Part shown: one piece after another, positions 51,064 through 52,373 of the stretch
How positions within the stretch are numbered: position 1 is the stretch's first letter
How the letters are laid out: every line of letters begins with the position of its first letter
Assembly: GCA_946628965.1 (NCBI GenBank)
Contig: CAMOXI010000002.1
Location: 1-64,000, forward strand
Origin: an uncultured Clostridia bacterium
GTDB taxonomy: Bacteria > Bacillota > Clostridia > Oscillospirales > Oscillospiraceae
Length of the DNA: 64,000 nt
Reading direction: 5' to 3'
Translations under genes and position numbers: made by a program
The notes under the pieces: model-generated
Databases searched by the model: none
Seen by the model: the letters and a program-made list of their open reading frames with translations, nothing else
What the model was told of the DNA's origin: nothing

Positions 51064-51702
51064 ATGATGGATCAGCAGCAGATCGGCGTTTTTATCCAGG
51101 AGCTGCGAAAGGGTCGCGGCATGACGCAGCAGGAGCTGGCCGACCGGCTGGGCGTCACCAACAAGGCGGTCTCCAAGTGGGAGAAGGGGCGCTCGCTGCC
51201 GGATGTGGCGCTGTTTGAGCCGCTGTGCGGAGAGCTGGAGATCAGCATCCCGGAACTGCTGGCCGGGCGCAGGATCGACGCGGAAGCGCGGCAGCAGGCC
51301 GCGGAGAAGCTGCTGATGGAGTCCATCAGCCGGGGGAAGCTGGTGGGCCTGCAGGCTTTTCTGATGGTCAATACGCTGATCGGCGTTGTGCTGGCGCTCA
51401 GCCCGCTGCTCTTATCCGTCGAGCAGCCGCTTTCCTGGCTGCTGTTGGGCTTCGGCCTGCTGGAGTGCGCCCTGGTCGTCTATTTTGACTGTTCGCTGCC
51501 CGGCAGGGAGACCCGGCGGCAGTCCTTCGCGGTACGCGTGCTCTATACGGTCTGCCTGTTCTTCACCCTGGGCGTGCTCAATTACCCGGCCTCGGTGCGC
51601 GAGGGGATCCCCCTCCGCACGGAGATCCTGGTTTTCCTGCTCCCCTGCCTTCTTGCGCTTCTGATCCAGTTTGTCGTCTGGCGGTTCAAGCGCAGCAAGT
51701 AA
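51064..51702 (+). CDS. XRE-family HTH regulator with C-terminal TM domain
   Basis: IGVFIQELRKGRGMTQQELADRLGVTNKAVSKWEKGRSLPDVALFEPL plus four hydrophobic segments. Confidence 0.93.
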   Translation: MMDQQQIGVFIQELRKGRGMTQQELADRLGVTNKAVSKWEKGRSLPDVALFEPLCGELEISIPELLAGRRIDAEARQQAAEKLLMESISRGKLVGLQAFLMVNTLIGVVLALSPLLLSVEQPLSWLLLGFGLLECALVVYFDCSLPGRETRRQSFAVRVLYTVCLFFTLGVLNYPASVREGIPLRTEILVFLLPCLLALLIQFVVWRFKRSK

Positions 51703-51756
51703 AACGCGCTGTCCGCCCGGACTGATTTTCCCGGTTTTCATTTTCTCCGAAATATG

Positions 51757-51965
51757 GTATAATGATCATCGGATGGCGAAATCAATCGGAGATCCGATTG
51801 ATTTCGCTGCCAAACGACAGGTTTGGCAGCGAATGATTCTTCGAATCATTCGCCCGATGCTCATTGCAATGAGTATATGGCAAAACAGCAATGCTGTTTT
51901 GCTGCGCCGCAAAGCGGCGCGGCGAAAAGCTTTCTGGCTTTTCGCCATCATATAATCATTATGAT
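51757..51965. repeat. About 205-bp element: seven back-to-back hairpins inside imperfect terminal inverted repeats
   Basis: TATAATGATCATCGGATGGCGAAA ... TTTTCGCCATCATATAATCATTATG as ends; stems at 51776-51807, 51803-51833, 51829-51853, 51857-51876, 51880-51902, 51904-51920, 51921-51946. Confidence 0.9.
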
Positions 51966-52028
51966 CCTCCTGCTTTCTCTCCCTGAGAAAGCAGGATGTT
52001 CTTATTACAGCAGGAAGAGGAAGGACGA

Positions 52029-52373
52029 ATGAAAAAGACAGAGATCTACATCGGCCTGAACGATCAGGACAGCAAGGTGCAGAAGTTTGAAACCGCCAAA
52101 TACGTCTCCATTCTGAAGAATGTGTGCATCAGTTACCGCGTCCCCTTTTCCTTTTCTCTGATTGAGGGCGGCTACATCCACGAATCCGGCGAGTATACGC
52201 AGGAGACCACACTGGCCCTGTCCCTGATCGGTGTGGAGCACAGCACGGTGGAGGAGATTGCCCAGGACCTCTGCGTCTTTTTCCACCAGGAATCCGTCCT
52301 GATCACGGTGGGTGAGGTGGAGACTTACAGCATCCGGGGCGGCATGCAGTCCGGCGACGAAGATCCGTCCTGA
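52029..52373 (+). CDS. Hypothetical protein, 114 aa
   Basis: GGAAGAGGAAGG upstream; MKKTEIYIGLNDQDSKVQKFETAKYVSILKNVCISYRVPFSF... Confidence 0.75.
   Translation: MKKTEIYIGLNDQDSKVQKFETAKYVSILKNVCISYRVPFSFSLIEGGYIHESGEYTQETTLALSLIGVEHSTVEEIAQDLCVFFHQESVLITVGEVETYSIRGGMQSGDEDPS

Follow-up and report, generated by a model that had tools for sequence, protein, structure and literature searches.

Small mobile DNA elements, probably non-autonomous, with a twin-cloverleaf plan in uncultured Oscillospiraceae

The window analyzed here comprises 64,000 nucleotides of contig CAMOXI010000002.1 from an uncultured Clostridia bacterium of the Oscillospiraceae, and at 51757-51965 it contains a dense run of hairpins lying between inverted repeats. 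We consider it probable that this segment represents a family of small non-autonomous mobile elements of about 200 bp, resembling miniature inverted-repeat transposable elements (MITEs), that are built as twin cloverleaves, are moved in trans at AT dinucleotides, and have their hairpins kept as DNA. The elements are short, non-coding, multicopy, and dispersed, with terminal inverted repeats at sharp ends and empty sites in relatives. We class them as MITE-like because the testable features of MITEs are present, with the exceptions of a partner transposase and an unambiguous target duplication. For accepted MITEs, the partner autonomous element or transposase is often missing as well.

The fold of the segment is far beyond chance. 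Its minimum free energy is -117.8 kcal/mol on the + strand and -114.0 kcal/mol on the - strand, compared to means of -59.4 and -55.5 for shuffled sequences (z = -12.7 and -13.7), placing it about 58 kcal/mol below the shuffles, and 0 of 200 dinucleotide-preserving shuffles were as good. A chance cluster of hairpins or an assembly artefact can be regarded as refuted, given that shuffles never reached this energy and that the element is present in independent assemblies of many species. The first-pass annotation had described seven hairpins arranged as a single closed wheel inside the terminal repeats. All of the inverted repeats it quoted were found in place, but the consensus structure derived from 144 distinct copies consists of two tandem cloverleaves separated by GC, each with a closing stem (AATGA…TCATT) that encloses three perfect hairpins. 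Six of the seven hairpins are thus retained, while the seventh (CTCATTGCAATGAG) is the junction of the two modules. The outer terminal repeats are also able to pair, but less well than the module stems (76% Watson-Crick pairing over 16 positions, compared to 87% and 93%). Because the module stems pair better and are backed by compensatory changes, we favor the two-module fold over the closed wheel.

A relative from genome G336, only 67% identical, also has six hairpins arranged on this plan; its stems differ in sequence, and its hairpin 3 is 20 bp long. The units are also modular, as shown by stand-alone relatives of module 2 that form single-module elements (loci L049 and L365), by deletion derivatives, by a copy in which hairpins 1-2 are duplicated in tandem within the element (L137:2332-2572), and by a copy whose module 2 has shrunk to a single long perfect hairpin that terminates in the complement of the module itself, an outcome that template switching could produce (L265:2693-2852). 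Separately, hairpin 3 is interrupted in two copies by an unrelated sequence rich in hairpins, apparently a nested mobile element (L191:168-519 and L046:1503-1865).

Copies of the element are numerous and dispersed. The source genome holds 8 near-full-length copies with 87-100% identity, together with several fragments at contig ends, implying that assemblies break inside copies; the carrier genomes are fragmented metagenome-assembled genomes (MAGs) that break at identical copies. Within the genus, copies were detected in 33 of 61 sampled genomes, with up to 24 matches per genome. In the wider family the element turned up sporadically, in 10 of 301 genomes spread over 7 of 106 genera. Identity was 82-94% for most of the other genera and 67% for a single genus. 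Such a scattered occurrence suggests either horizontal transfer or misbinned contigs. The 82-94% identical copies lie at loci L293-L298 and L301-L305 (genomes G148, G184, G185, G213, G229, and G289). Scanning named genomes with a DNA pattern gave at least 117 stretches, nearly all from MAGs of uncultured Oscillospiraceae or Ruminococcaceae, and the sources named among the matches listed included rumen, sheep, goat, and rabbit (Lapin). Three pattern matches fall in MAGs labeled Rikenella, Synergistes, and actinobacterium (L161, L182, and L197), for which chance, misbinning, or transfer are all possible. No match to the element was found in the viral contigs, phages, and plasmids searched. In genome G046, copies 98-99.5% identical occupy unrelated loci, indicating recent spread. 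By a crude open reading frame (ORF) heuristic for gene calls, 30 copies lie between co-directional, 25 between divergent, and 23 between convergent genes, 5 of 85 lie inside an ORF, and orientation is unbiased (13:17).

The ends of the element are sharply defined. In 112 aligned copies, conservation stops at ATAATGA…TCATTAT: information content is approximately 1.7 bits at the terminal A/T, drops to 0.7-0.6 bits one base further out, and is close to 0 past that point. The joined flanks of 22 copies were compared with 102 genomes of the genus, and clean empty sites were recovered at three loci (L252, L253, and L255; 88-93% identity). Each consists of flank, AT, and flank, and all three read T-AT-A where the copy sits. 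Insertion therefore leaves at most a 2-bp duplication, and duplication of AT (2 bp) and simple insertion between A and T (A^T) fit equally well. When duplicated target sequences 2-11 bp long were sought at ten register offsets, nothing stood out above shuffles, and none longer than 2 bp was found. Duplication of TA is ruled out by the empty sites, which keep TATA, and a 4-bp TATA duplication is unlikely given that the outermost bases vary independently (left T in 74 of 106 copies, right A in 76). Base preference in the flanks is weak and symmetric: moving away from the element on either side, it runs A, A, T, A/G (A at 64% and then 52%, compared to a background of 20%), so that the target resembles the element's own joined ends. 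The predicted sequence of such a joined-end or circular junction is TCATTATAATGA. These results bear out the initial proposal of a mobile element with terminal inverted repeats. In the mechanism we propose, an enzyme supplied in trans would recognize the terminal AATGATNATNNGATGGCGAAA repeats and insert the element at an AT dinucleotide within a TATA-like, palindromic, mostly intergenic target, leaving an AT duplication of 2 bp or less.

To assess conservation of the stems, a separate alignment of 34 diverse copies was used; these sequences are related, so the counts overstate independence. Paired cells amounted to 97.9%, compared to 87.1% in shuffles and 33-47% in slid versions of the structure. 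Compensatory changes on both sides were found at 41 of 70 pairs, against a shuffle mean of 18.8, with 0 of 500 shuffles reaching 41, and 208 cells had changed on both sides, compared to 50 in shuffles. Strong covariation and a very stable fold would also be expected of a structured RNA, as had been suggested initially, such as a non-coding or cis-regulatory RNA spread through duplication. However, selection on a single RNA strand should tolerate G-U pairs more than A-C pairs, the latter being G-U on the other strand. Among pairs with a Watson-Crick consensus, the element has 166 G-U and 128 A-C, or 140 and 127 when a single position also able to pair with the opposite end is left out, whereas an RNase P control drawn from 30 of the genus's genomes and equal in mean identity (0.83) has 70 and 29, albeit on an imperfect structure that is RNAalifold's own. 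Pairing is thus kept about equally on both strands, which argues against an RNA acting from one strand. In addition, both strands fold equally well, the many dispersed copies occur in all gene orientations without strand bias, and neither the window element nor six relatives had an Rfam match above the gathering score. An RNA function is therefore very unlikely, and the element is neither a catalogued Rfam family nor a single-copy sequence without homologues.

Comparison of nearest copies provides a further view of the stems. Per-site divergence is 5 times greater in loops than in stems, and stem changes are mostly one-sided (312 pairs, compared to 31 compensated). It appears that single copies decay after insertion, while the lineages that spread keep their pairing, implying either a requirement of the mobile DNA or self-correction of hairpins in replication. 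Accordingly worded, our proposal is that the hairpins are maintained at the DNA level, where they may be needed for mobility or replication, may be perfected by hairpin templating in replication, or both, rather than serving an RNA function.

Several points weigh against the interpretation of the family as MITE-like elements whose hairpins matter for movement, and they concern the hairpins, the target, and the enzyme. Hairpin self-correction by template switching creates and keeps perfect stems and can mimic functional covariation (PMC8794818), so that such switching alone could account for them and a need for the hairpins is only presumptive. It is possible, if doubtful, that the hairpins are perfect solely through this process, the terminal repeats mattering and the interior not. 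The predominance of one-sided stem changes in nearest copies and the single perfect hairpin of the L265 derivative would suit this explanation, but the plan of six hairpins in two modules persists at identities as low as 67%, loops vary more than stems, and loop inversion, a signature of template switching, accounts for an unconvincing 10 of 194 loop differences. As to the target, a true duplication is indistinguishable from simple A^T insertion, and each flanking AT could equally be duplicated target or the end of the element together with target sequence. As to the enzyme, neither an autonomous copy nor a transposase gene bearing the terminal repeats was found in the families and genomes searched, a non-exhaustive set that covers a minority of the DDE families. 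Of 16 element-rich genomes, 2 had DDE_3, with a single match exceeding the cut-off, and 7 had DDE_Tnp_1; no gene of either kind carried matching ends. Pairs of end patterns in genomes G039 and G000, considered as autonomous copies, were all shorter than 250 bp. An 846-bp end pair in L213 was likewise rejected, since such pairs proved to be short copies or two separate fragments. An IS200-type Y1_Tnp was rejected as the mover because it is absent from several carriers and weak Y1 matches proved to be RAYTs.

The final point against concerns these RAYTs (TnpA-REP), which are common in the genus as RAYT-like genes (NCBIfam NF047646; one of two tested was over the cut-off). They co-occur with the element, being present in 23 of 29 carriers compared to 9 of 28 element-free genomes (Fisher p = 0.0005, uncorrected for kinship). 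This raises the possibility of a REPIN-type element, moved as single-stranded DNA by a host RAYT that recognizes hairpins through a Y1 tyrosine enzyme and leaves no target duplication, with which the empty sites are compatible; a "clover" form is also possible for REPINs (PMC3116915). Yet six carriers have no detectable RAYT (G002, G023, G025, G026, G032, and G051), although several of these are incomplete genomes, and REPINs consist of two inverted repetitive extragenic palindromes (REPs), not two cloverleaves. Moreover, the RAYT genes adjoin other palindromes, GGGCGNTTCNNGAANCGCCC and GGCAGGGAG...CTCCCTGCC (at L388, L396, L397, L403, L416, and others), which are likely the cognate REPs. These palindromes were absent from 589 kb of element loci as well as from RNase P loci, and the element core was absent from the 92 kb surrounding RAYT genes. 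Because the palindromes differ and the core is missing around RAYTs, we do not class the element as a REPIN in the strict sense, as the first-pass annotation had proposed, and consider movement by a RAYT rather unlikely; the enzyme would instead be a cut-and-paste transposase. It is also unlikely, though conceivable, that the twin cloverleaves are recognized as folded single-stranded or cruciform DNA by a further recombinase, which would constitute hairpin-directed mobility unlike that of DDE MITEs or RAYT REPINs. The RAYT-like proteins themselves (L388-L417 and L368-L387) carry paired peptide motifs at two fixed places, as if repeat-derived: RRGDPCGRP ... RATARVAPT, VGADALGG ... GPPRASAPT, and VGAIHESP ... 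ERAIHESP.

Small non-autonomous mobile repeats are well known as a kind. Bacterial MITEs such as Correia/NEMIS, RUP, ERIC, and RU-1/2/3 (PMC10969869, PMC2229807) are similarly non-coding, intergenic, and multicopy, 100-200 bp long with terminal inverted repeats, and have strongly folding transcripts or strands, a short or TA/AT target, and no transposase of their own. What sets the present family apart is a fold of two cloverleaves in tandem, in which each end of the element is paired to its center through a closing stem, and no sequence family was found to match it. CIR elements of Caulobacter and Brucella (PMC2229807) also have two arms and a linker in place of end-to-end pairing, but, going by their description, these are two long inverted repeats in unrelated hosts rather than two three-hairpin cloverleaves. 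REPINs share the dispersed intergenic hairpins, paired units, monomer remnants, and possibly duplication-free insertion (PMC3116915), whereas our element was not seen next to RAYT genes, is bounded by terminal inverted repeats of 23 bp, and targets AT. MITEs of the IS630/Tc1 type (e.g., RUP) share the short AT/TA dinucleotide target, but identity with these was rejected, as neither a TA duplication nor a cognate DDE_3 was found: DDE_3 is absent from 14 of the 16 element-rich genomes, and the T-AT-A empty sites do not fit plain TA duplication. Searches of Rfam, of the annotated collections covered, and of open-access papers turned up neither this family nor its twin-cloverleaf plan, although the literature result is weak evidence of absence given that subscription papers and preprints fall outside it; as far as searched, both are new. 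With this family, bacteria that occur commonly in rumen and gut metagenomes yet have few cultured members gain a mobile element that is widespread, was recently active, and has a strongly conserved and unusual architecture. Since the stems covary without strand bias, the family offers a clean natural test of whether DNA hairpins in mobile repeats stay perfect because transposition demands it or because they correct themselves during replication. Its copies also interrupt assemblies, leaving contig ends within them, and the ends of the element can bring a TATAAT box beside genes.

Table 1. Positions in the window of the element and its parts. The + strand of the element is a convention that places the module bearing the GCCAAAC hairpin first.
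Feature	Position	Strand	Description	Basis
Whole element with flanking AT dinucleotides	51759..51962	+	204 bp	Sharp conservation boundaries in 112 copies, empty sites
Element limits within the AT dinucleotides	51761..51960		AATGA...TCATT
Left AT	51759..51760	.		T-AT-A empty sites in three relatives
Right AT	51961..51962	.		Empty sites of relatives
Left terminal inverted repeat	51759..51781	+
Right terminal inverted repeat	51940..51962	-	87% complementary to the left repeat over 23 nt
Module 1 (cloverleaf)	51761..51865	+	Closing stem 51761-51772 with 51854-51865; hairpins 1-3	144-copy fold, pair counts
Hairpin 1	51776..51807	+	GCGAAATCAATCGGA/TCCGATTGATTTCGC; both-side changes at 8/12 pairs
Hairpin 2	51809..51827	+	GCCAAAC/GTTTGGC
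Hairpin 3	51829..51853	+	GCGAATGATTC/GAATCATTCGC; both-side changes at 9/11 pairs
Module junction (seventh hairpin of the first-pass annotation)	51861..51872	.	TCATT-GC-AATGA	Consensus fold, pair counts
Module 2 (cloverleaf)	51868..51960	+	Closing stem 51868-51879 with 51949-51960; hairpins 4-6
Hairpin 4	51880..51902	+	GCAAAACAGCA/TGCTGTTTTGC
Hairpin 5	51904..51920	+	GCGCCGC/GCGGCGC
Hairpin 6	51921..51946	+	GGCGAAAAGC/GCTTTTCGCC

The element itself contains only small overlapping ORFs. It lies between two + strand genes, one encoding an HTH_3 regulator (51064-51702) and the other a small gene (52029-52373) with a weak, below-cut-off match to DUF3574. Directly after the element, at 51968-51996, is a strong terminator-like hairpin (TCCTGCTTTCTC/GAGAAAGCAGGA), and at 51735-51763 is a promoter-like pair that ends in the element's terminal TATAAT, both assigned by consensus match only.
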